A DNA stretch of 64,000 nucleotides, from NCBI RefSeq assembly GCF_023115355.1, contig NZ_CP096020.1, forward strand, positions 372,001-436,000, in the 5' to 3' direction. The notes below the pieces were generated by a model. The model saw nothing but the letters and a program-made list of their open reading frames with translations, was not told where the DNA came from and did no database searches. The stretch is from Halocatena salina (GTDB taxonomy: Archaea; Halobacteriota; Halobacteria; Halobacteriales; Haloarculaceae). Shown in pieces: positions 42,042 to 64,000 of the stretch. The position numbers were made by a program, and so were the translations under genes. The stretch's first letter is position 1. The number at the start of each line of letters is the position of its first letter.

Positions 42042-42045
42042 CGGA

Positions 42046-43702: not shown

Positions 43703-43715
43703 AACTTTTATTATA
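43703..43715 (+). promoter_or_regulatory. TATA element of the lipase-like gene
   Basis: AACTTTTATTATA is centred about 30 bases before ATG 43741. Confidence 0.5.
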
Positions 43716-43740
43716 ATAATTCCGATGTCTCATTTGTTCC

Positions 43741-44559
43741 ATGCGAGACAGCACACGTTCGGGACGAGAGGAGAACAACGAGACGACCACCGTCGACAGA
43801 CGGACTGTACTCAAGGGGCTTGGAGCCACTGCGCTCGTCGGCCCCGTCGCCGCCACCGGCAGCACTGTCGCTCAAAGCGTGACGGTTATCGAGGTCGAGG
43901 AAACGCTTCTCGGGGGTTTCGAAGCCGATGGACCGTTGCCGGTCGTCGACGAGCTGTTCGTGTTCGTTCACGGCTGGTTCGGTGACACGACAGTCAGGAG
44001 TCAGGCGAACAACGTGTTGGGCTCCGTCGAAGCGGGCGGATACACACCAGACGCGGCGGTCGCCATCGAGTGGCCTGCGACCAACTTCTGGTATCCCAGC
44101 GCCGAAAGCGACACGGAGGACGTCGGAGCGGAGGTCGCCCGACTCATCGAGGAATACAGCGATAGCGGTGGGGGCAACGTCCGACTGACCGGTCACTCGT
44201 TGGGCGGTCGGATCGTCTACTGGGCGGCGACGTCGATCGGATCCGGCTACACGATCGACACCATTGGTGGAATGGGCACTGCTGCAGATGGGTCGACCGT
44301 CTGTCCGCTCGGGCAGTGGCACTCGGGGATCGCGGACAACGCGGGAACAGTCCGGAACTACCACTCCCAGAACGATACAACCGTCGGCTCAGCTTACGGC
44401 GGCATCGGTGACACGGCGCTCGGAACGGAGGGGGCACCGTGTGATGGTGCGTCGAACTACACGGACGTCGACGTCACCTCGTCGGTCGGTGGCCACCTAG
44501 AATACCTCGGTGACTCACAGGTCGGCAGCGATCTTGCCAGCGTCATCTTGAACGACTGA
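43741..44559 (+). CDS. Tat-exported alpha/beta-hydrolase (lipase/esterase-like)
   Basis: 272 residues. Tat motif DRRTVLKGLGATALVG (R20-R21), with likely processing after the VAAT or VAQS region. The hydrolase core has the oxyanion strand LFVFVHGWFGD and nucleophile elbow RLTGHSLGGR (S153). The aspartate is probably in the segment GAPCDGASNY region and the histidine in SVGGHLEYLG. It resembles haloarchaeal secreted lipase-like proteins. It could release fatty acids outside the cell for the surrounding beta-oxidation genes; the substrate is not known. Confidence 0.85.
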   Translation: MRDSTRSGREENNETTTVDRRTVLKGLGATALVGPVAATGSTVAQSVTVIEVEETLLGGFEADGPLPVVDELFVFVHGWFGDTTVRSQANNVLGSVEAGGYTPDAAVAIEWPATNFWYPSAESDTEDVGAEVARLIEEYSDSGGGNVRLTGHSLGGRIVYWAATSIGSGYTIDTIGGMGTAADGSTVCPLGQWHSGIADNAGTVRNYHSQNDTTVGSAYGGIGDTALGTEGAPCDGASNYTDVDVTSSVGGHLEYLGDSQVGSDLASVILND

Positions 44560-44650
44560 TCGATCCAACAGCGGTAAACCAGTTTATACAACCGGAACAG
44601 ATAGCCGCTACGTCGGAAGCTATGTGTGAGCGCCCTGAGTCGAGATCGTG

Positions 44651-45442
44651 ATGGAGATCACGATCGACCTGATCGACCGCGGTCACATCAGAACCGATCT
44701 GAACCACATTATCGAAGGAATGGCGATGGGAACCGCCGAGAATCCCAATCCCGATACGGTGATGGGCGAGGGACCGGTGTACAACTTGGTGATCGATCAT
44801 CCCGAGGCGACCATCCTCTGGGACACCGGTTCGCATCCGGCAGCGGGAGACGGACACTGGCCCGCACAACTGTACGCGGCATTCGAGCATTACGACGCCC
44901 ATGAACACGTCTTGAGCGACGATCTCGCGGCGGCGGGCTACGCACTGGAGGAGATCGACGCCGTGATCCAATCCCACCTGCATCTTGACCACGCCGGTGG
45001 ATTGCACAACTTCGCGGGCACTGACGTTCCGATCTACGTTCACGAAGCCGAACTCAAACACGCCTACTACAGCGCGAACACCGATTACGGAAGTGATGCG
45101 TACGTCGCAGCGGATTTCGATCACGATCTGAACTGGGAGATCATCCACCGTGAGAGTGAGACCCACTTTTCAGGGATCGAGTTCCTGCACCTGCCCGGAC
45201 ACACGCCGGGGCTGCTCGGACTCCAGATCGAACTGGCAGACGAGACGCTACTCATCGCAGGAGACGAGGCGTATATGCGCCAGAACTACGACGAGGAGCT
45301 ACCGCTCGGTGCTGGGTTGCTCTGGGACAAACGCGCGTGGTTCGAGAGCCTCCGATTGCTCAAAGACCGCGAACGGCGACACGATGCGCTGGTGGTGTGT
45401 GGGCATGACGCTGGCGATGCCGAGCGGCTCCGTAAACTGTGA
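44651..45442 (+). CDS. Metallo-beta-lactamase-fold hydrolase, AHL-lactonase-like
   Basis: 263 residues from ATG 44651 (GTG 44648 also possible). The metal motif SHLHLDHAGG gives H109, H111, D113 and H114; later ligands are in HLPGHTPGLLGL and LIAGDEAYM. The overall layout (VYNLVIDHPEATILWDTG at the start, HEAELKHAYYS in the middle) is that of the N-acyl-homoserine-lactonase subgroup. It could open lactones or hydrolyse related esters, and AHL activity is not established for such archaeal proteins. It lies between the lipase-like gene and a convergent acyl-CoA dehydrogenase. Confidence 0.82.
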   Translation: MEITIDLIDRGHIRTDLNHIIEGMAMGTAENPNPDTVMGEGPVYNLVIDHPEATILWDTGSHPAAGDGHWPAQLYAAFEHYDAHEHVLSDDLAAAGYALEEIDAVIQSHLHLDHAGGLHNFAGTDVPIYVHEAELKHAYYSANTDYGSDAYVAADFDHDLNWEIIHRESETHFSGIEFLHLPGHTPGLLGLQIELADETLLIAGDEAYMRQNYDEELPLGAGLLWDKRAWFESLRLLKDRERRHDALVVCGHDAGDAERLRKL

Positions 45443-46582
45443 TCAGAGGATCGAATCGGAGATGATGTTTTTTTGGATCTCGCTCGTTCCTTCGTAGATC
45501 TTCGTGATCCGGGCATCGCGGTAGAACCGCTCAACGGGATGGTCGGTTACGTAGCCAGCCCCGCCGTGAACCTGGATCGCCTCGTCTGCAACGTCGACTG
45601 CGTGCTCGCTCGCGAACAGCTTCGCCATACTGGCGTACTTCGTCGCCTTCCGCTTCTCACCGTCCATGACGTGGCTCGCAGCGCGGTAGGTGAGCGAACG
45701 GGCGGCTTCGACGTTCGTCGCCATCTCTGCGATCTTGTGTGAGATGGCTTGATACTCTTTGATCGGCTGACCGCCTTGCTCACGCTCGTTTGCGTAGGCG
45801 ATCGACTCATCGAGCGCAGCTTGGGCAGCGCCCAGTGCTTGGGCAGCCACGTTCGTCCGGCCGCCGGCGAAGAAGTCCATCAGCTGGTAAAACCCCTCGT
45901 CGATCTCGCCGATGACGTTGTCCGCCGGTACTCGAACGTTCGTGAGTGTGATCTCAGCGAGATCCGAGGCCCGAATACCGAGTTTGTTGTCGATCTTCGT
46001 CGCCTCGAAGCCATCGGTGTCTGTCGGCACGAGAAACGCCGTGATCCCGCGGTGGCCACTGCCGGGGTCGGTTTTCGCCATCACGACCGCAACGTCAGCA
46101 ACGGTGCCGTTGGTGATCCACATCTTGTTACCGTCGATCACCCATTCGTCACCGTCTTTCTCGGCGCGCGTCTCGATCCCGGCGACGTTCGAACCGTGGG
46201 CCGGTTCTGAGATACACGAACAACTCGCGGACTCACCGGAAGCGATCTTCTCCAGCCACTCCGATTTCATCGCCTCGTCACCGTAGGCCCGAATCATGCT
46301 GCTCCCGAATCCCCGCGAGCCGATAGCGCTCCCGATACCGGGATCGGCGCGCCACAACTCCTCAGTAACGAGCACAGCACTGAGCAGATCCATCCCCGCC
46401 CCACCGTACTCCTCCGGAATAGTGGGTGAGATCAGATCGTACTTGGCCGCTCGTTCGACGAGTTCGTACGGGTAGCTCCCCGACTCGTCGTGGTCTCGTG
46501 CTACCGGTCGGATCTCGTTTTCACCGAACTCCCGGACGACATCACGGACTGCCTGCTGTTCGTCGGACAGATCGAACGCCAT
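45443..46582 (-). CDS. Acyl-CoA dehydrogenase (classic short/medium-chain type)
   Basis: 379 residues, the standard length. The FAD-contact motifs are SCSCISEPAHGSNVAG and WITNGTVADVAVVMAKTD; near the end QVHGGAGYVTDHPVERFYRDARITKIYEGTSEIQ carries, in pieces, the usual catalytic glutamate (IYEGT, about E364). This is the one acyl-CoA dehydrogenase in the window with the canonical base. It follows the acyl-CoA ligase gene on the minus strand with a 69-base gap and probably shares its promoter. Confidence 0.95.
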   Translation of the reverse strand: MAFDLSDEQQAVRDVVREFGENEIRPVARDHDESGSYPYELVERAAKYDLISPTIPEEYGGAGMDLLSAVLVTEELWRADPGIGSAIGSRGFGSSMIRAYGDEAMKSEWLEKIASGESASCSCISEPAHGSNVAGIETRAEKDGDEWVIDGNKMWITNGTVADVAVVMAKTDPGSGHRGITAFLVPTDTDGFEATKIDNKLGIRASDLAEITLTNVRVPADNVIGEIDEGFYQLMDFFAGGRTNVAAQALGAAQAALDESIAYANEREQGGQPIKEYQAISHKIAEMATNVEAARSLTYRAASHVMDGEKRKATKYASMAKLFASEHAVDVADEAIQVHGGAGYVTDHPVERFYRDARITKIYEGTSEIQKNIISDSIL

Positions 46583-46651
46583 ATCTCCGTATCATCGCCC
46601 GGCGTGAAGTATCTTCTCCAACAGCTCGTCGCAACGAAAAACGACGCGACG

Positions 46652-48208
46652 TTACTGATCAGCGCTGTCGCGCAGCTCGAACTTCTGTACCTTTCCGGTA
46701 GTGGTTCGCGGCAGTTCCTCAACGAACTCGACTGTCCGGGGATGTTTGTACTCCGCCAGCGTGTCGAGACAGTACTGTTTGATCTCCTCGGGCGTCACGT
46801 CCCCACCCGGAGCGACGAAGGCCACAACGGTTTCACCCCGGCGCTCGTCAGGAACCCCAACCACGGCGGCATCGGCGACCGCAGGATGTTCGAAGAGGAG
46901 TTCTTCAACCTCCCGTGGATACACGTTGTACCCGGCCGTGTTGATCATGTGTTTCTCCCGATCCACGACGTAGAAAAATCCATCCTCGTCGTAGTATCCG
47001 ATGTCACCCGTGTGGAACCACCGCTTCCCATCACGTTCGGTGAACGCCCCTTCGTTGGCCGCCGGCAGGTCGGCGTACCCTTCCATGACGTTCGGCCCGT
47101 GAACGAGAAGCTCTCCTGTCACGGAATCGAGATCAGCGTCGTCCTCGACGGGACCGCGCTCGACGGGCGGCAGTTTCTCACCCGCACCATCAACGATTTT
47201 CGCCTCCACACCGTCGAGCGGTTGACCGATGCTTCCGGGACGTCTGCTACCGGGCTGGTTCGCGTGAGTAACGGGACTCGTTTCGGTGAGACCGTACCCT
47301 TCGTACAGTTCAGCGTCATACAGCTCCTCGAACCGCTCTAACACCTCGATCGGAAGGCTGCTCCCTCCGGAGTTCACGAATCGCAGGGAGGACAGATCAG
47401 CCTCGGTGGCGTTCTCCTGGTTGATGAGATCGTTGAACATCGCCGGAACGCCGTGCATCACCGTCAGCTGTTGGCGCTCGATCAGCGACAACGCCCGTTG
47501 TGCGTCCCACTCGGGGAGCGGGTAGTACGATCCGCCTTCGAACAGCGTCGAGAGCATCGTGACCGTCATCCCGTAGATGTGAAACAGCGGCAACGCTCCT
47601 AGGAACCGATCGTCGGAACGAACACCGCCATCCATCAGTTCCGAGACCGCGCGCGCGTCCCACGCGAGATTCCGGTGGGTGAGCAACACACCCTTGGGCG
47701 TGCCGGTCGTTCCGCTCGTGTACGGTTGGACTGCCACATCGTCGTCGGCTCGCTCGACGGGAGCCGAAACGTCGTCCGCTGAATCGAGGAACGCAGCAAA
47801 CGACTCCGCCGCGTCGCTGTCGCCGACGCTCACGACGTGTTCGACGTCCGTCTCGTCTTTTACTTGAGTGACGTACGGCACGAGATCAGCGAGCGTGAGG
47901 ACGACCCGCGCCTCGCTGTCAGCCAGCAAGTGCTCGATCTCGCGGGCCTTGTACTGGGGATTCATCGGCACAACGATACCGCCAGCGTGCAGCGTTCCGA
48001 AAAAGCCGACAACGTACTGGGGAAGGTTCGGAAGGTAGATCGCTACCCGATCGCTCGGTTCGATGCCCCGTCCCCTGAGTGCGCCAGCGAATCGACGAAC
48101 CTGCGACCAGAACGCTCGATAACTGATGTCTTGGCCCTCATACCAGAGCGCCGTCTGTTCGGCGTGGGTGTCGACGGTGGAAATCACATCACTGACCAGG
48201 TTTGTCAC
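46652..48208 (-). CDS. AMP-forming acyl-CoA ligase
   Basis: 518 residues, starting with GTG at 48208 (TNLVSDVISTVDTHAEQ). The P-loop is YTSGTTGTPKG, then GYGLTETSP, WFHTGDIGYYDEDG, DREKHMINTAGYNVYPREVE and the C-terminal lysine in TTTGKVQKFEL. An acidic loop of about 15 residues (PVERGPVEDDADLDSV) is inserted before the hinge, as is common in haloarchaeal enzymes. It activates fatty acids for the acyl-CoA dehydrogenase downstream, and is divergent from an IclR regulator with an operator-like palindrome right at its start. Confidence 0.92.
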   Translation of the reverse strand: MTNLVSDVISTVDTHAEQTALWYEGQDISYRAFWSQVRRFAGALRGRGIEPSDRVAIYLPNLPQYVVGFFGTLHAGGIVVPMNPQYKAREIEHLLADSEARVVLTLADLVPYVTQVKDETDVEHVVSVGDSDAAESFAAFLDSADDVSAPVERADDDVAVQPYTSGTTGTPKGVLLTHRNLAWDARAVSELMDGGVRSDDRFLGALPLFHIYGMTVTMLSTLFEGGSYYPLPEWDAQRALSLIERQQLTVMHGVPAMFNDLINQENATEADLSSLRFVNSGGSSLPIEVLERFEELYDAELYEGYGLTETSPVTHANQPGSRRPGSIGQPLDGVEAKIVDGAGEKLPPVERGPVEDDADLDSVTGELLVHGPNVMEGYADLPAANEGAFTERDGKRWFHTGDIGYYDEDGFFYVVDREKHMINTAGYNVYPREVEELLFEHPAVADAAVVGVPDERRGETVVAFVAPGGDVTPEEIKQYCLDTLAEYKHPRTVEFVEELPRTTTGKVQKFELRDSADQ

Positions 48209-50840: not shown

Positions 50841-51482
50841 ATGTCAGAGATACAAGCAGTCGTGATCGGCGAGAACCGCTTTCCGTTCCATCGGCTCGAA
50901 CGGATCGGCCCGTCGCTTCGCCGGGCGATCGACGTGGAAGGGATCGCCGTCGACCTGACGACCGACCGGGACGAGCTGTGTGATCTGATCGGATACGACG
51001 TTTTGATCGATTACACGACGGACAGCACATTCACCGACGAGCAACGATCGGGGCTGCTCTCGTTCGTCGAAAACGGTGGGGGCTACGTTGGCGTCCACTG
51101 TGCTGCCGACCTCACGACCGTGGTCGAAGGAGCGCGCGAGGAGCCAGTTCCCGATCTCCGGGCGCTGCTCGGGGGTCACTTTCTGACCCACCCCGAGCAA
51201 GGGACATTCGACGTGAACGTCGTCGACAGCCATCACCCGGTGTCGGCCGGACTCGATGGGTTTACTGTCTGGGACGAGCCGTACGCCGTCGCTCATGACG
51301 ACGTACGGGTTCTCGCTCGGATGGATCATCCGGAAAACGGAGACATGCCGGTTGCGTGGGTGAAACCGTACGGCGACGGACGGGTGTTCTACTGTTCGCT
51401 TGGCCATGGAAAGCCCGCATTCGCCACCGACGGCGTTCGATCACTGCTCGTCCGAGGGATCCGCTGGGCCGGTAACGAGTGA
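50841..51482 (+). CDS. ThuA-like domain protein
   Basis: 213 residues covering one ThuA/class I glutamine-amidotransferase-like fold: VLIDYTTDSTFTDEQ, FVENGGGYVGVHCAAD (the usual GGG-GxH site), ALLGGHFLTHPEQGTFDV, HPVSAGLDGF and GRVFYCSLGHGKPAF. ThuA proteins are found in sugar and trehalose-use operons but their reaction is not known. It lacks a signal peptide. It is the first gene of the same-strand pair with the GH4 enzyme 136 bases downstream. Confidence 0.88.
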   Translation: MSEIQAVVIGENRFPFHRLERIGPSLRRAIDVEGIAVDLTTDRDELCDLIGYDVLIDYTTDSTFTDEQRSGLLSFVENGGGYVGVHCAADLTTVVEGAREEPVPDLRALLGGHFLTHPEQGTFDVNVVDSHHPVSAGLDGFTVWDEPYAVAHDDVRVLARMDHPENGDMPVAWVKPYGDGRVFYCSLGHGKPAFATDGVRSLLVRGIRWAGNE

Positions 51483-51618: not shown

Positions 51619-53034
51619 ATGCACGAGTTAGGGCTCTACGATGGAGCAGCCTCTGCGTCGGAACTGAAGATCGGCTACGTCGGTGGGGGAAGCCAAGGGT
51701 GGGCACACACGCTCATCAACGATCTAGGCCAGTGTTCGGATCTCAGCGGAGAGGTCGCCCTGTACGACGTCGACTACGAAGCGGCCGAACGAAACGCCGA
51801 ATTCGGCAACCGCGTGATGGAACGGACGGACGCAGTCGGTGACTGGCGATTCGAGGCGTATCGAGAGATGGACGCCGCGCTATCGGATTCGGATTTCGTC
51901 GTCTGCTCGGTCCAGGACCCACCCGAAGAAACGTTCAAACACGATCTCGACGTGCCCCAAGAGTACGGCATCTACCAGACCGTAGGCGATACGGTCGGTC
52001 CCGGTGGAACGATACGGGCGCTGCGAGCCATTCCTCAGTACCGGGAGATCGCTGCCACAGTCCGCGAAGAATGTCCCGATGCGTGGGTGATCAACTACAC
52101 CAATCCGATGACGGTCTGTACCCGCGCGCTGTACGCGGAGTTTCCCGACATCAACGCCATCGGCCTCTGTCATGAGGTTCACCCGTTTCAAGAGCTATTT
52201 GCAGAAATCGCAGAGCGGTACGTCGAGACGGCCGAGGACGTCGACCGCGAGGAGATCGACGTGACCGTCAAGGGTATCAACCATTTCACGTGGATCGACG
52301 CGGCCGATTGGGCCGGTCACGATCTGTACGACTATCTTGACGAGGAACTCGAACGCCGCAAACCACTCCCCGGCTACGAACCCGGCGACATGGCGGGTGA
52401 GTCCTACTGGAGCAACCATTTCCAGATCGCGTTCGACTTGTACGATCGGTTCGGCGTACTCGGTGCGGCGGGCGACCGACACCTCGCGGAGTTCGTTCCG
52501 TGGTATCTCTCTATCGATGCACCCGAAGAGATCCAGCGCTGGGGGATTCGGCTTACACCCAGTTCTGCCCGCGTCGGTGGGGAATCCCCCGACAAGATGA
52601 TGACCACTCGCGTGGACGAATTCGAATTCACCGAGTCGGGTGAAGAAGCCATCGAGATCATGCGCGCGCTGTTGGGCATCGAACCGTTCAAAACCCACCT
52701 TAACTACCCTAACGAAGGACAGATCAGCGATCTTCCGGAAGACGTAGTTGTCGAAACGAACGCCTTGCTCACTGGAAAAGGCGTTACGCCGCTGTGTGCT
52801 GGCGGTCTACCCGACGAGATCCACAGCATGGTCAAGCGCCACGTCACCAACCAAGAGACGCTCATCGAAGCCGGATTCGAGGGTGATCTCGATCGTGCGT
52901 TCCGAGCGTTCCTTAACGATCCACTCGTGACACTCAAACGCGAACACGCAGCAGAGCTGTTCGCTCGGCTCGTCGAGATCGAGCGCGAATATTTCACCGA
53001 CTACGATCTCCGGAACGCGACGGTCGTGGAGTGA
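51619..53034 (+). CDS. GH4 family NAD-dependent glycosidase, probable alpha-galacturonidase
   Basis: 471 residues from ATG 51619, chosen by TATA spacing. The Rossmann start is IGYVGGGSQGW (22-25), followed by VQDPPEETFKHD, the NYTNPM motif, and GLCHEV with C184, H185, E186 and V187. GH4 enzymes use NAD+ and a divalent metal bound by this Cys/His, and the four residues differ by specificity. CHSV marks alpha-glucosidases and alpha-galactosidases, whereas CHEV was described for the alpha-galacturonidase LplD of Bacillus subtilis. GINHFTWI and a late HSMVKRHV further fit the family. No signal peptide, so it acts inside on imported galacturonides, which suits the neighbouring PL11 lyase and rhamnosidase. 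Confidence 0.88.
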   Translation: MHELGLYDGAASASELKIGYVGGGSQGWAHTLINDLGQCSDLSGEVALYDVDYEAAERNAEFGNRVMERTDAVGDWRFEAYREMDAALSDSDFVVCSVQDPPEETFKHDLDVPQEYGIYQTVGDTVGPGGTIRALRAIPQYREIAATVREECPDAWVINYTNPMTVCTRALYAEFPDINAIGLCHEVHPFQELFAEIAERYVETAEDVDREEIDVTVKGINHFTWIDAADWAGHDLYDYLDEELERRKPLPGYEPGDMAGESYWSNHFQIAFDLYDRFGVLGAAGDRHLAEFVPWYLSIDAPEEIQRWGIRLTPSSARVGGESPDKMMTTRVDEFEFTESGEEAIEIMRALLGIEPFKTHLNYPNEGQISDLPEDVVVETNALLTGKGVTPLCAGGLPDEIHSMVKRHVTNQETLIEAGFEGDLDRAFRAFLNDPLVTLKREHAAELFARLVEIEREYFTDYDLRNATVVE

Positions 53035-53044: not shown

Positions 53045-54133
53045 TTAGGGATCGGGGAAGTCGTCCGGAACGGCCGGCGGTCGTTCGAGCGTACTCGAGA
53101 GCTCGATATACTCGTTTTCCGCCCCCGAATCGCGGATCCCTGTCATGATGTCGAGCACGTGGAGCGCCAACGCCGCGCTGGTTCGGTGGTGCCAGTCAGT
53201 CGTGAGGGCATAGGCAAGATCCAACAACCCGAGACCGCGTTGATGTCTCGACTGGTTGCGGGTCACCGAGATCTCCTGTACCTCGTCTACGCCCTGAACA
53301 CGGACGCGAGGCGTACCATCGAACCGGTTGGGATTGGTGAGTTGAAGAGTACCCTCCGTCCCGTAGATCTCAAAGCCCGTCACCGACGTTTCCCAGACGT
53401 CGAAACTCATCATCACCGTTCCGACGGTCCCGTTTTCGAACGTGACCGTTCCGGTCTCGTGGGTCGGTACCGTCACGTCGATCGTTTCCCCCCATCGGGG
53501 CTCGCTGGTGATCGTCCGTTCGTCAGTCGCTTTGGTCGTGGTGCCTGCGACTGCACGCGCAGGACCGAGGAGCGCGACGAGCGCCGTGAGGTAGTACGGT
53601 CCCATATCGAACAGCGGACCACCACCCTCTTGGTAGTAGAAGTCCGGATCTGGATGCCAGTGTTCGTGACCGGAGGTCGCCCAGGATGCGACAGCACCGA
53701 CCGGATCACCGATCCGGCCCGCTTCGAGCACGTCCCGACACGTCTGTAGCCCGCTTCCGAGGACGGTGTCGGGAGCACTCCCAACGAGGAGGTCCTTTTC
53801 CCGCGCCGTCCGGACGATCTCCCTCCCTTGGGTCATCGAGGTCGCCAACGGCTTCTCAGTGTACGCGTGCGTATCGTTTTCCAGCGCTCGTATGAGGAGA
53901 TCCCCGTGCGTCGAGGGCGGCGTCAGGACTACCGCGACATCGACCTCCGGGTCGGCGAGCAACGCATCGGTCGGGAGAACGCGACACCCATACTGATCCG
54001 CCTTTGCTTCGGCCCGTTCGGTCGCCAAATCGGCACAAGCCACGACTTCGAGACAGTCGAACTCAGTTGCGGTCTCGAAATACACGTCGCTGATCGTTCC
54101 ACACCCGATAATACCGAGGGTAATCCGTTCCAT
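53045..54133 (-). CDS. Gfo/Idh/MocA-family NAD(P)-dependent oxidoreductase
   Basis: 362 residues from ATG 54133 (MERITLGIIGCGTISDVY). The Rossmann glycine motif is IGCGTI, followed by LTPPSTHGDLLIRAL and TEKPLATS (EKP 93-95). The C-terminal domain has GGPLFDMGPYYLTALVALLG, a common substrate-site segment. It ends ten bases from the stop of the convergent GH4 gene and follows the PL11 gene region. It probably oxidises or reduces a sugar from rhamnogalacturonan breakdown; the exact sugar is not known. Confidence 0.9.
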   Translation of the reverse strand: MERITLGIIGCGTISDVYFETATEFDCLEVVACADLATERAEAKADQYGCRVLPTDALLADPEVDVAVVLTPPSTHGDLLIRALENDTHAYTEKPLATSMTQGREIVRTAREKDLLVGSAPDTVLGSGLQTCRDVLEAGRIGDPVGAVASWATSGHEHWHPDPDFYYQEGGGPLFDMGPYYLTALVALLGPARAVAGTTTKATDERTITSEPRWGETIDVTVPTHETGTVTFENGTVGTVMMSFDVWETSVTGFEIYGTEGTLQLTNPNRFDGTPRVRVQGVDEVQEISVTRNQSRHQRGLGLLDLAYALTTDWHHRTSAALALHVLDIMTGIRDSGAENEYIELSSTLERPPAVPDDFPDP

Positions 54134-54234
54134 AATCGACAATGTATGCAAACGAGCAAATAGTTTTCGTCCGAGGGCATCGTTGGCTCGGGGCTAATGG
54201 TTCCCCGTGAGGGAACGAGGCGGAGTACTCCGTA

Positions 54235-56172
54235 CTACCGCTTTGGATCCTCGTCGTGGGCTGGTTCGATGTTCAACGTCGGCAGGTCGTCCATGCCGGT
54301 TCCGATGTAGAAACTCGGATGCGGTGGTTGGTTATACCCTGCGTTCTGCCATGCCACGCTCGTCCGATACTGAGAATCGTGCATCAGAGTGGGTATCCTG
54401 TGTTCGGTCGGGTGTGTCGTCGCATAGATCCGAAGCGCACTGCTGTCTTCGGTCCGCCAGAGCACCTCCTCGCGCCAATCCCCGAGAATGTCGGCCGACA
54501 GACACGGAGTTCCCTTCGTATAATTATTCGAATACGTCCCCTCGAAGGTGAGTAGAGTCTCCAGTTCTTCCGTCTCGTGGTTCCACCGGTCGATCTTGCC
54601 GACCCCGATTTCGGCGTCGTCGTCCCAGTCGTGATCGAGGAGTTCCCGCTGGAGATCGCCCGTCCACCAGATGCCGAAGTTGGCTGATGGGACGGGATCG
54701 GCGATCGACGTTCCATCAACGGTGTGCGTGTCGACACCCCATCCCCACGCTTCGGCTCCCCGGTGGGTCGGATCGATGTCGGCGATCATCCCTCGGCCCG
54801 TGTCTTCGCCGGTGTGTTGTCCCCAGATCAGCTCGCCGGTTTCGGCGTCCCGGAACGACGCACCGTACGGTGCGGTCGTCGGTTCGTGAACCTGAAAAAC
54901 CTCCAGTCCCGGGCGGTCGGGATCGAAATCACCGACGTGGAGCGCATCGCCGTGGCCCCAGCCGGTCGAGTACAGCCCCGTGCCGTCGTGATCGACGACC
55001 ATCGCACCGTAAACGATCTCATCGTGCCCGTCGTCATCGACGTCCGCGACGCTGAGCTGGTGATTGCCTTGTCCGGCGTACGCGCCGTTGCCGGGATCAT
55101 CGCTGTCGAACACCCATCGCTCGGTGAGTTCACCATCCCGGAAGTCGAACGCCGCCAACATGGTTTTTTCGTAGTATCCACGGGTCATGAGGATACTCGG
55201 CCGCTCGCCGTCCAGATACGCGACACCCGCGAGGAACCGATCGACACGGTTGCCGTAGCTGTCACCCCAGTCCGAAACGTTGCCTCGCGCCGGTCGGTAG
55301 TCGACGGTCGCGCGTTCGGCTCCCGTCTCCCCATCGAACACGGTGAGATACTCTGGTCCCGTTAGGATCCGTCCCGTCTCGTTGCGGTAGTCGGCATCCG
55401 GATCACCGATGACCGTGCCAGTGCCGTCAACAGCGGCATCCGACGTTCGTACAGCGATCTCCGCGACGCCGTCGCCATCGAAATCGTAGACGAGATACGG
55501 CGTGTAATGCGCTCCTGCGCGGATGTTCCGCCCGAGATCGATCCGCCACATGAACGTGCCGTCGAGCTGGTAGCCATCGAGATACACGTTCTCGGTGTGT
55601 CCCTCGTGAGCGTTGTCCTTGGCGTTCGACGGCGTCCATTTGAGCACGATGTCGTAGCTTCCATCGCCGGTGAGATCGCCCACGCTGGCGTCGTTGGCGC
55701 TGTAGGTCACCGTTTCCCCGTTGTGGCCGACCGTTTCAGACGGCTTGTTCAGCGGGATCTCCCGGTAGCTCCGATCCCAGACGGTCGTCGTGTGGGTGGA
55801 CTCATCGACGCCGATGGGACGCAACGAGTACGTCGAGGACGTCGTTCCATCGGGATCGAGATAGTTCGTGCGATCGCGGATCGGCGCACGGTTTACCTTC
55901 GTCCCATCGCGAAACAGGTGAAACCCGATCCGATCGGGATCCGTTCCGAGGAGCCGCCAGCGGACCAACACACCTTCATCCGTTGGCACCGCCACCATCC
56001 CCCGATCGAGCGACTCCATCTGCCGGAGTGAATCTTCATTTCGTGGCCCAGTCGCAGCGCCGCTCGTTCCGAGAAAACTTGTAGCTAACACCACTCCCGA
56101 TAGGCTGACGAACGAACGCCGATTAAGGCGACTCCCGAACGCTTGTTCTGCATCCGTCTCTCTGTCATTCAT
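54235..56172 (-). CDS. Tat-exported rhamnogalacturonan lyase, PL11 (YesW/YesX-like)
   Basis: 645 residues from ATG 56172; upstream of it a GGAGG lies at a Shine-Dalgarno-like distance. Tat motif LNRRSFVSLSG (R18-R19) and a hydrophobic stretch to about 40. A short N-terminal sandwich (VRWRLLGTDPDRIGFHLFRDG) precedes an eight-bladed propeller with acidic calcium-type loops: GDLTGDGSYD, YDFDGDGVAE, ADVDDDGHDE and ADIDPTHRG. Conserved PL11 stretches include RDDG-like blades, ARGNVSDWGDSYGNRVDRFL, and LSADILGDWREEVLWRT near the end. Such lyases cut the rhamnogalacturonan-I backbone between rhamnose and galacturonate by beta-elimination, here outside the cell. Confidence 0.94.
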   Translation of the reverse strand: MNDRETDAEQAFGSRLNRRSFVSLSGVVLATSFLGTSGAATGPRNEDSLRQMESLDRGMVAVPTDEGVLVRWRLLGTDPDRIGFHLFRDGTKVNRAPIRDRTNYLDPDGTTSSTYSLRPIGVDESTHTTTVWDRSYREIPLNKPSETVGHNGETVTYSANDASVGDLTGDGSYDIVLKWTPSNAKDNAHEGHTENVYLDGYQLDGTFMWRIDLGRNIRAGAHYTPYLVYDFDGDGVAEIAVRTSDAAVDGTGTVIGDPDADYRNETGRILTGPEYLTVFDGETGAERATVDYRPARGNVSDWGDSYGNRVDRFLAGVAYLDGERPSILMTRGYYEKTMLAAFDFRDGELTERWVFDSDDPGNGAYAGQGNHQLSVADVDDDGHDEIVYGAMVVDHDGTGLYSTGWGHGDALHVGDFDPDRPGLEVFQVHEPTTAPYGASFRDAETGELIWGQHTGEDTGRGMIADIDPTHRGAEAWGWGVDTHTVDGTSIADPVPSANFGIWWTGDLQRELLDHDWDDDAEIGVGKIDRWNHETEELETLLTFEGTYSNNYTKGTPCLSADILGDWREEVLWRTEDSSALRIYATTHPTEHRIPTLMHDSQYRTSVAWQNAGYNQPPHPSFYIGTGMDDLPTLNIEPAHDEDPKR

Positions 56173-56501
56173 TGCTGTCAACGCCTCCAACCTCCGTTGA
56201 AAGTGAATTGTTAAAAACCTTTTGTCGGTCGAACAGATGAAGCCGACGATTTCGTAGCCGGTGATGCCGGATACAGTCACCATCAAAATCCGACGCCAGC
56301 ACTGGCATCAACTACGATCCGTATGCCGTTACACGCGTACGGATGTAACTGCCGATCAGTTGTGACATGGGAGCTGCGGAAAACGTCCGGTGGTATCGGA
56401 CGCTGTGAGCAGAGCGAGATCTGAAAGGAGGCGGTGAGTAATCAGTAGCGCAGTAGTAAGCGATACGAACGGAACCGGAACGATCCGGTAATGGGGGACG
56501 A
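56173..56501. other. Intergenic region upstream of the PL11 gene
   Basis: About 330 bases with no gene. GTTAAAAAC at 56210-56218 (GTTTTTAAC on the minus strand) is a likely TATA element about 41 bases before the PL11 ATG, giving a short leader that contains a GGAGG. The rest shows nothing recognisable. Confidence 0.5.
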
Positions 56502-57536
56502 TTACGCCTCGTCGAAGTTGAATAGAGGTTTGATGGTTTTCGAATCGAGGAACGCCTCGAAGGCAGCCGCCGGTTCGGACACCGAGAAGGACGTATCGAC
56601 GACGTTGTCTGGATCGATCGCGCCGTTTTCCATCAGTCGGAGCGCCTGTTCGAAGTTCGTCCACGTCGATCCGTAGGACGTGTTCACCTCGATTTCACTC
56701 CGAACGATGGGCGTCATAAACAGGGAGCTGGGGTCGCCGGGCAGCCCGACGACGACGACCTGTCCGCCTTTCCGGGTGACGTCGACAGCTGTTTCGATAC
56801 CGCTCCGGTGGCCGGTGGTATCGAAGACGACATCGAACCCGAGTCCATCGGTTCGTTCGTCGACCAGTTCTTCGAGCGACTCCGATTCCACGTCGACCGT
56901 ATCGATATCGATCGAGGCCAACCGAGGCAGCCGGTCCGTGGTGTCCTGCCCGAGACCGGAGACGAGCACGTTCGCACCCATCGAGTCGGCGATACACGCG
57001 ATTAGCGAGCCGATGGGACCGGGTCCCTCGACGAGCACCGTATCGCCGGGCGTCACACTCGACCGATCGAACACCGCTCGAGCGGCAATACTGGTCGGCT
57101 CCGTGATCGCCGCTGTACCGAGGTCGACACCGTCGGGAATCGAATGCAGGTGTTGGGGTTCGACGACCGTGTACTCCGCGTACGCCCCATCCCGGTGCAT
57201 TCCAGTGATTGAGAAGTTCTGACAGACGTTTTCTTGACCGTTGTCACACTGGAAGCAATCGCCACAGTGGTGGATCGGTTCCTCGACGACACGCTGGCCG
57301 GTCGAAACGCTCGTCACCCCATCTCCGACCGCGACGACTTCTCCGGAGTATTCATGACCCATGATCCGCGGAATGGGAATCCATTCGTACCCTCCGTCGT
57401 ATCTGTAAGCGTGGGCGTCACTGCCACACAGTCCAGCTGTGTGAACACGGACCAACACCTCGTTTGGATCGGGCGATGGACGGTTTCCTTGCTGTACCTC
57501 TACGGTTTCTGGACCGGTTTGAACGATCTGTTTCAT
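56502..57536 (-). CDS. Zinc-dependent medium-chain dehydrogenase (MDR family)
   Basis: 344 residues from ATG 57536 (MKQIVQTGPETVEV). Catalytic zinc ligands C37 (GLCGSD) and H61 (GHEYSGEV); structural zinc cysteines 91, 94, 97 and 105 (CGDCFQC and NVC). Rossmann motif EGPGPIGSL at about 170 and VVVVGLPGD later. It belongs with sorbitol/threonine/galactonate-type dehydrogenases, using NAD(P). It is next to PL11 and divergent from the SGNH esterase, so it probably handles a sugar alcohol or aldonate from pectin sugars. Confidence 0.92.
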   Translation of the reverse strand: MKQIVQTGPETVEVQQGNRPSPDPNEVLVRVHTAGLCGSDAHAYRYDGGYEWIPIPRIMGHEYSGEVVAVGDGVTSVSTGQRVVEEPIHHCGDCFQCDNGQENVCQNFSITGMHRDGAYAEYTVVEPQHLHSIPDGVDLGTAAITEPTSIAARAVFDRSSVTPGDTVLVEGPGPIGSLIACIADSMGANVLVSGLGQDTTDRLPRLASIDIDTVDVESESLEELVDERTDGLGFDVVFDTTGHRSGIETAVDVTRKGGQVVVVGLPGDPSSLFMTPIVRSEIEVNTSYGSTWTNFEQALRLMENGAIDPDNVVDTSFSVSEPAAAFEAFLDSKTIKPLFNFDEA

Positions 57537-57576
57537 ACACGAGCAACTCCATGAACCGCTGTACACTGGGGTGCGG

Positions 57577-58727: not shown

Positions 58728-58738
58728 ATTTTATAATG
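58728..58738 (+). promoter_or_regulatory. TATA element of the beta-helix gene
   Basis: ATTTTATAATG is centred about 27 bases before ATG 58760, which supports that start over the in-frame ATG at 58736. Confidence 0.5.
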
Positions 58739-58759
58739 TATAAAATATATAGATGTAGT

Positions 58760-59974
58760 ATGGTGGGAGATGACGTACCATCCAGTATCGAGACCGATCA
58801 CACAGCCGCCACCCCGGTTACGCGTCGGCGCGTTCTACTCGGGGGGGCCGGACTCCTCGCCGGGATCGTTGGGACGGCGAGTGCGAGCAGTCACGACGCC
58901 GAAGTGTACCAAACGGGTAGTACGTGGTACGCTACGAACGGCGGGACGGTGTATTCGGGGGGAAGCTACCGGGACGCGATCCAGGCCGCAGTCGACAGTC
59001 TCACCGATGGACGGACGACGAAGGAGAAGGTACTCATCAAAAACTCCGGAACGTTCACCGCCACGGAGTCGCTCAAGTCCGTCAGGCTCGACAGCTACAC
59101 GGTCATCGATCACAGCGGCACGATCTTCGTCGATGACACGGGCGAGGATCTCGTCGTTCCGTTCGAGGCCGAAAACGTCCACTCGGTCGAAATCCAGAAC
59201 CTCCGCGTCGAGGGCAATCCCCGGTATGGGCTCTGGATCAAGAGCTGTTCGGACGTGGCGCTTGGCACCATCGAAATGTCGCTGCATGAGACGACCGACA
59301 TCGGTCTGGGGATCCGCGTCGACGACAGCGGTGGGTCCGGACGGACACGGCAGTTCAGTCTCGAATACGCATCGATCGAGGGTGCTGCTCATCACGCGGT
59401 CGAGACGTACGGCGTTGACGGCGTCGATATCGGCACCGTGGAGACGGTCGATACGGGGGGCTGTGGACTGCTGTTGAACGACACGACCGACGCGACCGTA
59501 GGAACCGTAAACGCCACGCGTGCGGATCAGGGGGGCGGGTACGCCGGCTTCCGGTGTGCCAACGACTGCGGTCCGAACGTCTCTCTCGGAGAGTTACGGG
59601 CCATCGATTGTGGCCGTGGGCTGTTCACCGTTTCAGGCAGCCACGGCATCACCGTCTCGAACGTCTACATCGAGGGCTGTGAATCGGGCGCACTCATTCA
59701 AGACACGCAGAACACGACCGTCGACGGCGGCACCATCACGGGCAACGTGGGCGAAGGGATCCGCATCGACTCGCGCAGTTCCGATGCCCATCCCCACACG
59801 CGCGACGTCACGGTCCGAAATCTCCAGATCGACAACAACGACTACGGCGTCTACGAAACTGGACCGGACACCGAAGAGAACAGGATCCTGAACAACAACT
59901 TCTGTGACAACGCCACGGCCGCCATCGAAACGTACGCCACCACCACCGAAGTCACCGGCAACACGTTCTGTTGA
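58760..59974 (+). CDS. Tat-exported right-handed beta-helix protein (pectate-lyase-like fold)
   Basis: 404 residues from ATG 58760. Tat motif TRRRVLLGGAGLLAGIVG (R22-R24) with a likely cleavage after SAS. The mature part begins EVYQTGSTWYATNGGTVYSGGSY in pieces and then has coil after coil of beta-helix: SVEIQNLRVEGN, YGLWIKSCSDVALG, CGLLLNDTTDATVG, HGITVSNVYIEGCESGALIQD, RNLQIDNNDYGVYETG. This is the fold of pectate lyases, polygalacturonases and epimerases; catalytic residues could not be assigned by eye. It sits between the SGNH esterase and GH78, so action on pectin is likely. Confidence 0.82.
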   Translation: MVGDDVPSSIETDHTAATPVTRRRVLLGGAGLLAGIVGTASASSHDAEVYQTGSTWYATNGGTVYSGGSYRDAIQAAVDSLTDGRTTKEKVLIKNSGTFTATESLKSVRLDSYTVIDHSGTIFVDDTGEDLVVPFEAENVHSVEIQNLRVEGNPRYGLWIKSCSDVALGTIEMSLHETTDIGLGIRVDDSGGSGRTRQFSLEYASIEGAAHHAVETYGVDGVDIGTVETVDTGGCGLLLNDTTDATVGTVNATRADQGGGYAGFRCANDCGPNVSLGELRAIDCGRGLFTVSGSHGITVSNVYIEGCESGALIQDTQNTTVDGGTITGNVGEGIRIDSRSSDAHPHTRDVTVRNLQIDNNDYGVYETGPDTEENRILNNNFCDNATAAIETYATTTEVTGNTFC

Positions 59975-60144: not shown

Positions 60145-62832
60145 TCAGTCAGTGATGATTCGGTAGGTGCCAGTAGTAACGTCGACCGCGACGGCGTCAC
60201 CAGTGTCACGGACGGCATCGATACCGGATAAGTCTGGTGTGCTCGGCTGGTCGACAGCGACGGTCGTGTCATCAATGACGATGCGGTCCGACCGGGATGG
60301 AACCACGACGGTCGCAGTGGTGTTCCACGGGATCGTCACGGTGAGATCGATCCCGTGATCTCGTTCCCAGGAGACACGGACGGCACCGCATTCGGTCGGA
60401 ACGTGGCCGGAAGCGGCGTCGAGTCCGGCGTCGGGCGGACGGATGCGGAGCTGTCGATCGGCGTGGGCCTCGAATCGAACACCGAGTAACACGCGGAAAA
60501 CGTAGGTGAGCACCGTTGCACCCATCGCGTGCGATTCACTCCGGTTTCGACGGGCCTGCTCGGAAAGTGCGTCGACACCACAGTGCCACGATTCCCACGT
60601 GAACGTCCCGCCCTGTTCGAGGATGTTGGCCCAGCCGTCTGCCGTGGAATCGGTGAGCAACTCAACGAACGCTGCTGGTCGGTGGCTGGTCTGAAGCGCT
60701 TCGAGCAGCCACGGCACCATCATCGGTCCCATCTGCATTCCCGAGTTGACGACGTGATCGGTCACGGTCTCGATCGACGACGCGGGAACAGTGCCGGTCG
60801 CAAGCGCGAGCGCGTTGGCGTGCTGGGAGGCGTGGTCGCTGGACGCGTGGGCGTCACAGCCATCAACGAACAGCTCGCCGTCATGGAGGTGCTCGACGAC
60901 GGCCATCTCCAGTTGTCGGCGGCGATCTTGGAAGTACGCTCGTTCGGAACGGGGGCGGTCTAGCGCAACGGCGATGTCTCTCGCCCGCGCCAGAGCATTC
61001 ACACCGAAGAGATTGACCGTCGTCAACGCGGGCCAATCGCGGTCGTAGCCGTACCGCATCTCGGGCGGCCAGTCCACGATACCCGCCTCGTACGGCCCAC
61101 CCTCACCACCGCTGAGAGTCATCACCAATCCGGTGTCGGGATCGATGTGTCGGACGACGTAGTCGGCGACTGCGCGGACAACGGGGTAGGCCGTTTCGAG
61201 CACGCGGCGGTCGTCGGTGACTTGGTAGTAGCGCCACACCCACTCCGGGAACGCCTCGGTGAACTCCGGAATGTCCCGTTTACCGTCGCCGTTCGGATAC
61301 ACGGCGTTAAGCCGGCCGGTCGCTGCCCAATATCGGTAGTGGGACCGAACGAACTCCCGAATAGCGCCTCGGCTCAGCCGTCGTTCGCCGAACGCGAGCG
61401 TCGTCACCCGAGAGATATTGAACGCATCCATCAAGAACTGTCCTTTCTCGCGGGTCGGGGTGTCGACGAACCCTTCCTGACAGCCGTACAGCGCGGAACG
61501 GCGGGCTAACTCGACCACGTCGTCGAGCACTGGGTTCGAGGAGTCGAACGCCGCCGCGTGCCGATCCGGAACCGCGTTGTGCGAGACCGCGATCGACACC
61601 TGCTCACGAGAAAGCGATTCGCCCGGGTCATCGATCTGTAGATAACGAAAGCCAAGGTAGTTGAACGGGCGGAACTCCTGTACACCACCGCGCTGAACGT
61701 AGGCGTACCGCATATCCGTCGCCTGAGTGCCGTCGGTGTCGGACACTGCGCCGTCACGGTGATAGCCGGCGCGCAACTCGACGCGGTGGCCGTCCGTTCC
61801 CGCGTCGAAGCGAACGACCGGCCGACCGGGGTACACGCGTCCAAAGTCGAACACGATCGATCCGGAATCGAGCCGGTCGACCGATTCAGGATGGACCGTC
61901 TCGTGGGTGACCTCGCGGCGTTGGGCCACCAGCCGCTCCCACGGGTCGGTCGGGTGGTCACCGACGACCTCGACCGACTCCCAGTCGACGTCATAGCCCG
62001 GTTCGTCCCAGCCGGGCGAGAGCTGTCGTCCATCGATGATTTCGACCGGCTCGGCGATCTCCTCATTGCGAAGCGGCGCGTCGACCCACGGCCCAGCGGT
62101 CGTTTCCCAGCTGTCATCGGTCACCACGGTCGTCGATCGTCCGTCCTCGAAGTCGATGCGAAGCTGAAGGAGCAGCCCCGGCTCGCTTGCGGGCCGGCCC
62201 TGTCCCGCGCCGTGATAGGCGTGTACGATTCCCAAAACGTTTTCACCGGAACCGAGATGCTCCGTCACGTCGAGGGCTTTGTAGTATTGAAAATCGGGAT
62301 ATGCGAACGCCTGTCCCCGGTCGACCGAGTCGCCGTTGATCGACAGCACATACTGGTGACTGGCAGAGACGTACACCCGGGCACGCTCAACCACACCAGT
62401 TACCGCGACCGACCGCCTGAAACAGGAAAACGGGCTGCTCTGGTCAGTTCCAGCCCGTCGTATCCATGACGCCTCCCAGTCCTCCGCAGAGAGTCCCATC
62501 TCCCACGTTGCTGGCTGGCTCCACTCGCTGGGTCGATCGGCTTCATCCCACACCCGGACGATCCAGTAGTACCGGCAGCCAGCGGCAAGCGGTGGACCGT
62601 CGTACTCGATGGCGGGGCGCTCCGAGCGTCGTTTGCCCGAATCCCAGACGTCTGCTGCTCTGGGGGTGAGCCGGTCGGGAGCGGACGCGACGAGGACGCG
62701 AACAGCCGACTGGCGAGCATCCCGCCGATCGGTTGCCACACGCCACCGGAGAGTCGGGGTCGGTTCGTCGATGCCGATCGGATCCTGTGCGTACTCCGTT
62801 CTGAGGTCGATCGGCCGGTCTCGATCGCTCAT
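60145..62832 (-). CDS. GH78 alpha-L-rhamnosidase
   Basis: 895 residues from ATG 62832, chosen because a TATA element lies 28 bases upstream; the frame is open beyond but overlaps the divergent GH42 gene. N-terminal fibronectin-like and two beta-sandwich domains (RYYWIVRVWDEADRPSEWS, VYVSASHQYVLSING) lead to an alpha/alpha barrel. The GH78 acid motif is VDTPTREKGQFLMD with D457, E462 and D469 at exactly the spacing of the Bacillus RhaB residues; the later glutamate is in FTWESWH (E747). No signal peptide, so it removes alpha-L-rhamnose from imported oligosaccharides. It is divergent from GH42. Confidence 0.94.
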   Translation of the reverse strand: MSDRDRPIDLRTEYAQDPIGIDEPTPTLRWRVATDRRDARQSAVRVLVASAPDRLTPRAADVWDSGKRRSERPAIEYDGPPLAAGCRYYWIVRVWDEADRPSEWSQPATWEMGLSAEDWEASWIRRAGTDQSSPFSCFRRSVAVTGVVERARVYVSASHQYVLSINGDSVDRGQAFAYPDFQYYKALDVTEHLGSGENVLGIVHAYHGAGQGRPASEPGLLLQLRIDFEDGRSTTVVTDDSWETTAGPWVDAPLRNEEIAEPVEIIDGRQLSPGWDEPGYDVDWESVEVVGDHPTDPWERLVAQRREVTHETVHPESVDRLDSGSIVFDFGRVYPGRPVVRFDAGTDGHRVELRAGYHRDGAVSDTDGTQATDMRYAYVQRGGVQEFRPFNYLGFRYLQIDDPGESLSREQVSIAVSHNAVPDRHAAAFDSSNPVLDDVVELARRSALYGCQEGFVDTPTREKGQFLMDAFNISRVTTLAFGERRLSRGAIREFVRSHYRYWAATGRLNAVYPNGDGKRDIPEFTEAFPEWVWRYYQVTDDRRVLETAYPVVRAVADYVVRHIDPDTGLVMTLSGGEGGPYEAGIVDWPPEMRYGYDRDWPALTTVNLFGVNALARARDIAVALDRPRSERAYFQDRRRQLEMAVVEHLHDGELFVDGCDAHASSDHASQHANALALATGTVPASSIETVTDHVVNSGMQMGPMMVPWLLEALQTSHRPAAFVELLTDSTADGWANILEQGGTFTWESWHCGVDALSEQARRNRSESHAMGATVLTYVFRVLLGVRFEAHADRQLRIRPPDAGLDAASGHVPTECGAVRVSWERDHGIDLTVTIPWNTTATVVVPSRSDRIVIDDTTVAVDQPSTPDLSGIDAVRDTGDAVAVDVTTGTYRIITD

Positions 62833-62855
62833 CGGTGTCTCGTTGGATGGGGGGC

Positions 62856-62864
62856 GATAAAACC
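62856..62864 (-). promoter_or_regulatory. TATA element of the GH78 gene
   Basis: On the minus strand GGTTTTATC is centred about 28 bases before ATG 62832. Confidence 0.55.
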
Positions 62865-62903
62865 GTTCTCCGTTGGTGCGAATCGATGACCACACTACGA
62901 CAA

Positions 62904-62912
62904 CGCTTATTG
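62904..62912 (+). promoter_or_regulatory. TATA element of the GH42 gene
   Basis: CGCTTATTG is centred about 27 bases before ATG 62935; together with the GH78 element it makes a compact divergent promoter of about 100 bases. Confidence 0.5.
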
Positions 62913-62934
62913 TTCCCGCAGCGAACACGAAGCC

Positions 62935-64000
62935 ATGTCGATCGGTGTGTGTTACTATCCGGAACATTGGTCCCGGGAGCGATGGGAGACGGACGTTCAG
63001 GAGATGGCCGATGCGGGGTTCGAATACGTCCGGCTGGCCGAGTTTTCGTGGGGACGACTCGAACCCGAGCGCAACGCGTTCGATTTCGAGTGGCTGGACG
63101 AGATCGTTGCACTCGTCGGCGACCACGGGATGAACGTCGTCCTCTGTACGCCGACTGCAGGACCGCCTCGGTGGCTCCTCGAAGAGCATCCCGAAATTCG
63201 ACAGTCAGACCGCGACGGAACGGTCAGAGAGGTCGGAAGCCGTCGAGAGTACTGCGTCAACTCTCCGAGATACCGCTCGGAAACCGAGCGCGTCGTCCGC
63301 GAAATGGCGAGTCGATACGCCGACGTTCCCCACGTCGTGGGCTGGCAGACCGACAACGAATACGGCTGTCATGATACCGCTCGCTGTTACTGTGGGGACT
63401 GCACCGCGGCGTTCCGTGACTGGCTAGCAGAGCGCTACGGCGACGCCGAAGGGCTCAACGACGCGTGGGGAACGACGTTCTGGAGCCAACAGTACGACAG
63501 CATCGAGCAAGCGTCGGTGCCCGCTCCGACGCCGGCACAGGACCACCCATCGATGGTGCTCGACTACCGCCGGTTTTGTTCGGACAGCATCGTCGCGTAC
63601 AACCGACTACAAGCGGAACTGCTCCGTGAGTACGACGACTGGTTCGTCACGCACAATTTCATGGATCGGTTTCCGGCGATCGATCTGTACGACATCGCCG
63701 ATGATCTCGATCTGCTCTCGTGGGACTCCTACCCCACCGGACACGTCCAGGCGACCGAGGGGCAAACCCCGCCGGATCAGCTCAAGGCCGGCGATCCGGA
63801 TCTGATCTCGTTCAACCACGATCTGCACCGGGGCGTTCTGGGACGACCGTTCTGGGTGATGGAACAACAGCCGGGAGACATCAACTGGCCACCACACTCC
63901 GCCCAACCCGCGGAGGGCGCGATGCGGCTGTGGGCACACCATGCCGTCGCTCACGGTGCCGACACCGTCGTCTACTTCCGGTGGCGGCGGTGTCTCGAAG
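62935..64000 (+). CDS. GH42 beta-galactosidase, N-terminal half, runs off right edge
   Basis: 355 codons are open from ATG 62935 to the edge; whole GH42 enzymes have about 660-690 residues. The barrel starts IGVCYYPEHWSRERWE, acid/base is in GWQTDNEYGC (E142) and the nucleophile in FWVMEQQPG (E310). The cysteines that hold the family zinc (C107, C151, C153, C156) are all present. There is no signal peptide, so it removes beta-galactose, as found on rhamnogalacturonan-I side chains, inside the cell. The missing part should hold the trimerisation and C-terminal domains. Confidence 0.95.
   Translation, partial: MSIGVCYYPEHWSRERWETDVQEMADAGFEYVRLAEFSWGRLEPERNAFDFEWLDEIVALVGDHGMNVVLCTPTAGPPRWLLEEHPEIRQSDRDGTVREVGSRREYCVNSPRYRSETERVVREMASRYADVPHVVGWQTDNEYGCHDTARCYCGDCTAAFRDWLAERYGDAEGLNDAWGTTFWSQQYDSIEQASVPAPTPAQDHPSMVLDYRRFCSDSIVAYNRLQAELLREYDDWFVTHNFMDRFPAIDLYDIADDLDLLSWDSYPTGHVQATEGQTPPDQLKAGDPDLISFNHDLHRGVLGRPFWVMEQQPGDINWPPHSAQPAEGAMRLWAHHAVAHGADTVVYFRWRRCLE

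Follow-up and report, generated by a model that had tools for sequence, protein, structure and literature searches.

The closest described relative of the protein examined here is LplD of B. subtilis (PDB 3fef), a GH4 enzyme which its depositors named alpha-galacturonidase and whose gene has rhamnogalacturonan genes nearby. In GH4 enzymes a Cys and a His serve as metal ligands. The motif found in LplD, CHEV, was reportedly described by Thompson et al. in 2013 (FEBS Lett). In the alpha-galactosidase MelA of E. coli the motif reads GLCHSV; the first-pass annotation of the locus had assigned CHSV to glucosidases and galactosidases alike, which stands for MelA but not for the glucosidases, since GlvA has CDMP and the alignment gives CHGH for AglA (1obb), the alpha-glucosidase of T. 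maritima. A further GH4 enzyme with a uronide substrate, going by its depositors' name, is the alpha-glucuronidase TM0752 of T. maritima (6kcx, 7brf).

We analysed a window of 64,000 nucleotides from the 4.0-Mb genome of Halocatena salina (G000:C2:372001-436000, where G000 denotes this genome). Translation of its positions 51619-53034 on the plus strand gives a 471-residue open reading frame free of internal stops, whose closest named relative is from Halocatena pleomorpha (92%). The protein matches both GH4 Pfam domains, PF02056 with E 3e-51 (174 bits, cut-off 23.2) and PF11975 with E 2.1e-45 (155.8 bits, cut-off 24.1), and the proposed tetrad is indeed present as C184-H185-E186-V187 within GLCHEV (residues 182-187). 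Further motifs are GINHFTW, which contains H222, and GDTVGPGG, which contains D124; the Rossmann nucleotide motif GGGS (22-25), C184 and H222 are conserved over the CHEV rows of the alignment. Inspection of the sequence revealed no evident signal peptide. The protein is acidic, with a pI of 4.4 and 19.5% Asp+Glu, compared with 5.4 and 12.7% for the 3fef segment.

Besides the window gene, the genome holds two GH4 genes. We named three kinds: type A is that of the window gene, type B is a second CHEV kind, and type C is the CHSI/MelA type. The two additional genes are:

G000:C2:334425-335822, outside the window: type B (locus L002), motif GLCHEVMGTR, 44% identity to the window protein by search
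G000:C4:322984-324240: type C, motif CHSI, MelA type, 33% identity by search

Across 26 type-A rows (which take in two second copies from Haladaptatus), 15 type-B rows and 34 bacterial rows, the first three residues of the tetrad (C, H and E) never vary, so the motif is not a chance match.

Sequence and predicted fold agree on the nearest relative. LplD was the best PDB sequence match of the window protein (E 9.5e-111, 373.8 bits), followed by AglA with 93 bits, and the TM0752-type alpha-glucuronidase 1vjt scored 73.8 bits; the NCBIfam model for AglA-type alpha-glucosidases, NF041089, gave 109.6 bits and did not reach its cut-off of 650. Identity over aligned columns is 45.3% to LplD (428 columns), 28.0% to MelA and 21% to GlvA. 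A structure model was built from 44 aligned sequences (mean pLDDT 93), and for this predicted structure both Foldseek and VIA-align placed 3fef at the top, with Z 51.7 and an rmsd of 1.7 over 425 residues, followed by the next GH4 fold match at Z 39.6, with TM0752 at Z 33.9-34.4. In addition to fold and CHEV, the window protein and LplD have GDTVGPGG, GINHFTW and GDRHLAEF in common; they differ in that the window protein is more acidic, belongs to a separate haloarchaeal lineage, has DP instead of PG at residues 100-101, and is encoded convergently with a lyase gene and not in a common operon with it. MelA shares the GH4 family, the Asp in the D124 column and the metal ligands, but has CHSV, and TESSEH where the window protein has AAGDRH. 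TM0752 shares the GH4 fold, but at a Z of about 34 and 21% identity.

In a careful tree of 40 rows, including MelA and CHS rows, all CHEV proteins formed one clade against the MelA and CHS rows (100/100). Type B formed a clade of its own (100/100), with the Haladaptatus second copies as its sister (98/100 for the two together), and the bacterial CHEV rows, LplD among them, formed a group that excluded the haloarchaeal rows, moderately supported at 93/69. The haloarchaeal CHEV rows were also one clade in two wider quick trees, with quick-tree support of 99 and 100, the latter in a tree without an outside root; the former placed L002 and two Haladaptatus second copies with type B. Placement outside the LplD clade, which the first-pass annotation had named as refuting its reading, thus applies by half: the window protein belongs to the CHEV clade, yet it neighbours the bacterial clade that holds LplD and is not within it, as one member of a haloarchaeal lineage that is separated with moderate support.

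The genes around the window GH4 are as follows:

50841..51482, plus strand: ThuA-domain protein (PF06283, E 1.1e-37), 136 bp upstream of the GH4 gene
51619..53034, plus strand: GH4 protein with CHEV, type A, predicted alpha-galacturonidase (from motif, Pfam, tree and fold)
53045..54151, minus strand: Gfo/Idh/MocA-family oxidoreductase (PF01408, E 1.9e-21; no NCBIfam cut-off reached), convergent with GH4, start codon uncertain
54235..56286, minus strand: rhamnogalacturonan lyase PL11 (PF21348, E 1.6e-247), Tat-like N-terminus, start codon uncertain
56502..57566, minus strand: zinc-dependent sugar or polyol dehydrogenase-like protein (PF08240, PF00107; NCBIfam matches all below cut-off)
58736..59974, plus strand: right-handed beta-helix protein, possibly pectin-active (PF13229, E 3e-16; GH28 19.8 bits, below the cut-off of 22.9), Tat-like N-terminus
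60145..63189, minus strand: GH78 alpha-L-rhamnosidase (PF17389, E 6.5e-34), 5' end over-extended so that it overlaps GH42
62935..63999, plus strand: GH42 beta-galactosidase (PF02449, E 6.5e-138), continuing past the window end, with its GH42M domain downstream at L084:144-923

GH4 and PL11 do not form one operon, because they are convergent. The ThuA gene is kept beside GH4 in L004 and L005, the two nearest relatives; the exact order ThuA-GH4-Gfo-PL11 occurs only in these two, and an argument from synteny was therefore dropped.

Downstream of the window the cluster continues with PL22, an oligosaccharide- or peptide-type ABC importer, an IclR regulator, a uronate-dehydrogenase-like gene, a PelZ-like pectate lyase, GH28 and another Gfo gene; the uronate-dehydrogenase-like, PelZ-like and GH28 genes lie, together with an enolase-superfamily gene, 23-30 kb downstream of GH4. 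Genes that might serve the later steps of galacturonate use score below every NCBIfam cut-off and carry family-level labels only:

G000:C2:455068: enolase-superfamily gene
G000:C2:473107: KdgD-like gene, about 48 kb downstream of GH4
G000:C2:152924-155590: pair of a KdgD-like and an aldehyde dehydrogenase gene

The uronate-dehydrogenase label is not firm: a PDB search favours uronate dehydrogenases, and the best NCBIfam model is that of the G6P dehydrogenase Azf, with 194.7 bits against a cut-off of 400. The PL22 oligogalacturonate lyase gene (L084:954-2131; G000:C2 about 436,954-438,131) is open in two frames and looks as if frameshifted, and may be a pseudogene or a sequencing error. Elsewhere in the genome, a second PL11 gene at G000:C3:246793-248220 is found 12 kb away from a weak GH88/GH105 match (G000:C3:234536-235198). 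With 50.6 bits and a place on contig C3, this single match in the genome led us to set GH88/GH105 aside as a pectin marker. Upstream, the pectin cluster directly adjoins a fatty-acid oxidation block at window positions 39930-48208, comprising acyl-CoA dehydrogenases, an enoyl-CoA hydratase, a 3-hydroxyacyl-CoA dehydrogenase and an AMP ligase; further upstream, at 20000-28600, there is a strong AT skew (0.21-0.22) over long same-strand open reading frames, among them ones of 1140 and 612 residues.

We then compared this setting with that of type A in other haloarchaea. Type A is found in 13 of the 195 genomes of the order, an N-terminal GH4 fragment in G150 being left out of the count; an archaeal version, which the first-pass annotation had expected to be unusual, is thus uncommon but recurrent, not exceptional. 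At least one of PL11, PL22, GH28, GH78 and GH105 was matched within about 10 kb of 17/25 type-A loci, 0/16 type-B loci and 0/10 MelA-type loci, by locus profiles that were built from type-A neighbours and hence lean towards type A. (A profile of the enolase superfamily, MR_MLE, was discarded, as frames antisense to GH4 had been drawn into it and it matched nearly every locus.) Whole-genome Pfam searches and two Pfam censuses provide a check free of this bias. In the former, GH28 occurs in 8/13 type-A genomes and 1/182 others, GH78 in 10/13 and 3/182, and PL11 in 2/13 and 1/182, although the Fisher tests on such counts assume independence and the genomes are not independent, with near copies including L006/L007, L009/L010, L125/L132 and L128/L129. 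Two of the 13 (G108 and G166) hold none of GH28, GH78 and PL11. Among 83 proteins from 12 type-A loci, GH78, PL11, GH28 and PL22 are in the top 25 of 66 families. The galacturonide sense that had been read from the neighbouring PL11 and GH78 is supported by pectin clusters across haloarchaea; the PL11 link on its own is a weak argument, as only 3/195 genomes have PL11, two of them with type A.

Individual replicons give a similar picture. On plasmid pHTUR01 of Haloterrigena turkmenica, the neighbours of type A include two rhamnogalacturonan lyases, GH78, a GDSL esterase and an oligogalacturonate lyase; on pHTUR02 a second type-A copy adjoins a pectate lyase, with GH28 nearby. On a Halarchaeum plasmid the type-A copy instead adjoins genes of sugar-acid metabolism (DHDPS family, dgoD), and the genes listed for that stretch include no pectinase. 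Searches of 63 bacterial CHEV loci with haloarchaeal GH10, UxaC, UxuA, PL11, GH28, GH78, PL22 and GH105 queries matched pectin families at 6/63 and GH10 at 0/63, the sensitivity across domains being too low for these figures to be read further. Two other gene families were seen near type A: luciferase-like monooxygenase genes at 6/25 loci (including L084:10534-11520, L006:19660-20700, L123, L125 and L132), and, at five loci (L121:5407-7779, L008:3590-5695, L011, L124 and L127), a family of varying length (median 701 residues), two members of which were scanned and had no Pfam match.

The second CHEV paralogue is found in a different context. The type-B gene of H. salina, 41% identical to the window protein over aligned columns, shares with it the haloarchaeal clade and nearly all residues invariant in the CHEV clade, but lies 94 bp from a GH10 xylanase gene and close to a GH11 gene; the UxaC (glucuronate isomerase) gene of the genome is on a different contig. 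Type B was assigned by 43-49% identity together with locus arrangement, and 12 of the 18 genomes that carry it (18/195 of the order) were placed by the quick tree that lacked an outside root; the second copies of G108, G166 and G194 (49-51%, beside type A) were taken as Haladaptatus-type and left out. GH10 is present in 17/18 type-B genomes and 10/177 others, and UxaC in 16/18 and 5/177. Among 98 proteins from 12 type-B loci, the Pfam census counted GH10 11 times, UxaC and UxuA 6 times each, GH3 4 times, and GH11 and GH67 once each, with no pectin family among the best 25 of 65. GH4, endo-xylanase, mannonate dehydratase and uxaC genes lie together on plasmids of Halorussus vallis and Halarchaeum sp., and within about 12 kb in Halosolutus gelatinilyticus.

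We regard type B as a probable alpha-glucuronidase in which CHEV was retained. Our literature search recognised no report of a haloarchaeal GH4 alpha-glucuronidase among the matches listed. In Halorhabdus utahensis, according to the available part of PMC3102087, a GH67 alpha-glucuronidase occupies a type-B-like position next to UxaC and UxuA; type B does not stand in for GH67 everywhere, because one type-B neighbourhood holds a GH67 gene as well. The argument from the tetrad by itself, which the first-pass annotation took to track substrate in GH4, thus fails: haloarchaea with type A also hold a CHEV paralogue group whose neighbours are xylanases and glucuronate isomerase, and the galacturonide claim needs more than the tetrad to stand on.

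Residues outside the tetrad were compared next. The columns in which CHEV proteins differ from MelA include W28, N59, E186, T224, D286, R287, Q368 and N381, all of them conserved in type A and, apart from isolated exceptions, in the type-B and bacterial rows too. A comparison of 22 type-A, 17 type-B and 34 bacterial rows identified columns that split type B from type A and bacteria, including Q120G, D124A, M164V, T165H, C167V, Q191R and F292Y, of which the first five also separate the type-B protein of H. salina from the window protein. D124 lies 60 residues before the motif Cys in the window protein, LplD and MelA, and in this column all type-A rows, all examined bacterial CHEV rows and MelA of E. 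coli have Asp; at the same offset GlvA has Glu (QETCGPGG) and the H. salina type-B protein has Ala. If, as we assume, the motif Cys of GlvA is Cys171, the counterpart of D124 would be Glu111, which we take to be an active-site residue, and this analogy is a lead. Descent confounds the use of D124 as a marker of substrate, type B being a single clade. The divergent second CHEV copies of Haladaptatus (L013:14890-16395 and L015:14903-16408), about 3.5 kb from the type-A copy, have Ala at D124, yet share a locus with type A, with no GH10 seen. Altogether, we lean, somewhat cautiously, towards two haloarchaeal CHEV paralogues, type A acting on alpha-galacturonides in pectin clusters and type B on alpha-glucuronides in glucuronoxylan clusters, the switch having occurred inside the CHEV clade with the tetrad unchanged and with loss of D124.

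It is unlikely that the window GH4 itself cuts another alpha-uronide, be it xylan alpha-glucuronides or hexuronides broadly, with CHEV marking the carboxylate and not the galacto configuration. This reading can point to the CHEV of type B, which tracks GH10 and UxaC, to the type-A genes of G075 and G143, which lie 120 bp from a UxaC gene, and to a GH115-family gene near the type-A copy of L006. However, UxaC-type enzymes are generally known to isomerise galacturonate as well, GH78 lies 5 kb from type A in the same two genomes, and genomes with type A but without type B have GH10 in only 1/6 and UxaC in 1/6. In addition, type A matches LplD in D124, Q120, M164 and C167, positions at which type B carries A, G, V and V.

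From the observed family, nearest relative, conserved motif, fold prediction and gene context, we infer substrate and cofactor use: the window gene probably encodes a cytoplasmic, NAD+- and Mn2+-dependent GH4 alpha-galacturonidase for imported pectin oligosaccharides. The alpha-galacturonidase activity proposed in the first pass remains the best reading, with LplD nearest and pectin clusters around it, although it is a predicted activity, the tetrad offered for it is insufficient by itself and the protein lies outside the bacterial LplD clade. Tat-like N-termini occur in PL11, in the beta-helix protein and in the PelZ-like lyase but not in GH4, from which we read that the enzymes cutting the polymer are secreted and that GH4 stays in the cytoplasm. 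The secreted lyases and hydrolases, with PL11 inside the window and GH28 and the PelZ-like pectate lyase just downstream, would cut pectin outside the cell, and the oligosaccharides would be imported via the ABC importers of the cluster. GH4 would then release an alpha-linked galacturonic acid from the non-reducing end of fragments derived from rhamnogalacturonan or galacturonan, and rhamnose would be taken off by GH78. By analogy with the redox-elimination chemistry of GH4 described in the available portions of PMC4650693 and PMC10628242, bound NAD+ would oxidise the C3 hydroxyl and the C2 proton would be removed with metal help from C184 and H222, after which the aglycone would be eliminated, water added and C3 re-reduced. 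The freed galacturonate would probably pass through a dehydrogenase, an enolase-superfamily dehydratase and KdgD-like steps to 2-oxoglutarate. A literature search found no assayed archaeal alpha-galacturonidase among the matches listed.

Galacturonic acid can also occur in haloarchaeal glycoproteins, and a galacturonidase of this kind could in principle recycle galacturonate-bearing archaeal or microbial glycans (cell-surface glycoproteins, exopolysaccharides) and have no part in pectin use, which we regard as very unlikely. Growth data also speak for it. N. mannanivorans AArc-m2/3/4 (L006) and strain HArc-gm2 (L014) did not grow on pectin, polygalacturonate or rhamnogalacturonan, going by the available text of PMC9726719, and both carry type A in pectin-type clusters; the accessible part of PMC12343721 describes natronoarchaeal strain A-rgal3 as growing at best marginally in liquid culture with polymers of this kind, and what is available of these two papers reports that enrichment yielded no pectin-using haloarchaea. 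For N. mannanivorans, a natronoarchaeon, the portion of PMC10963439 at hand had already placed GH4 among the rhamnogalacturonan families, and growth was not seen. Against glycan recycling, the gene lies among families that act on plant pectin, several of which carry Tat-like signals for secretion (PL11, PelZ-like), and type A, in 13 of 195 genomes, is too patchy for a housekeeping gene. Under the preferred reading of an alpha-galacturonidase for pectin fragments, the type-A gene may serve oligosaccharides only or need induction; alternatively, it may serve another galacturonate-bearing glycan. That the window GH4 is an ordinary MelA-type alpha-galactosidase, as the automatic family name from its best NCBIfam model (PRK15076) suggests, is hardly credible, as its 269.6 bits are far below the cut-off of 486, the motif is CHEV instead of CHSV, the CHEV and CHS clades split at 100/100, and the genome holds a separate CHSI copy.

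The window gene is an archaeal member of the CHEV/LplD kind and is most likely, by prediction, an alpha-galacturonidase for pectin fragments. As such it offers an archaeal example, adapted to salt, on which a rare GH4 activity can be tested, within a predicted gene set for pectin use that is nearly complete, in a group whose growth on pectin has been sought and mostly not found, as far as the available parts of PMC9726719 and PMC12343721 report. The pair of CHEV paralogues in one genome amounts to a controlled natural experiment, with one tetrad, two contexts and few fixed differences, and makes it testable whether the tetrad suffices to tell galacturonide from glucuronide. If the proposed division between types A and B is true, CHEV would be a uronide motif, D124 would become a candidate for marking the galacto configuration, and alpha-glucuronidases would have evolved at least twice within GH4. 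The comparison suggests that a short naming motif does not by itself reveal which acidic sugar is cut.
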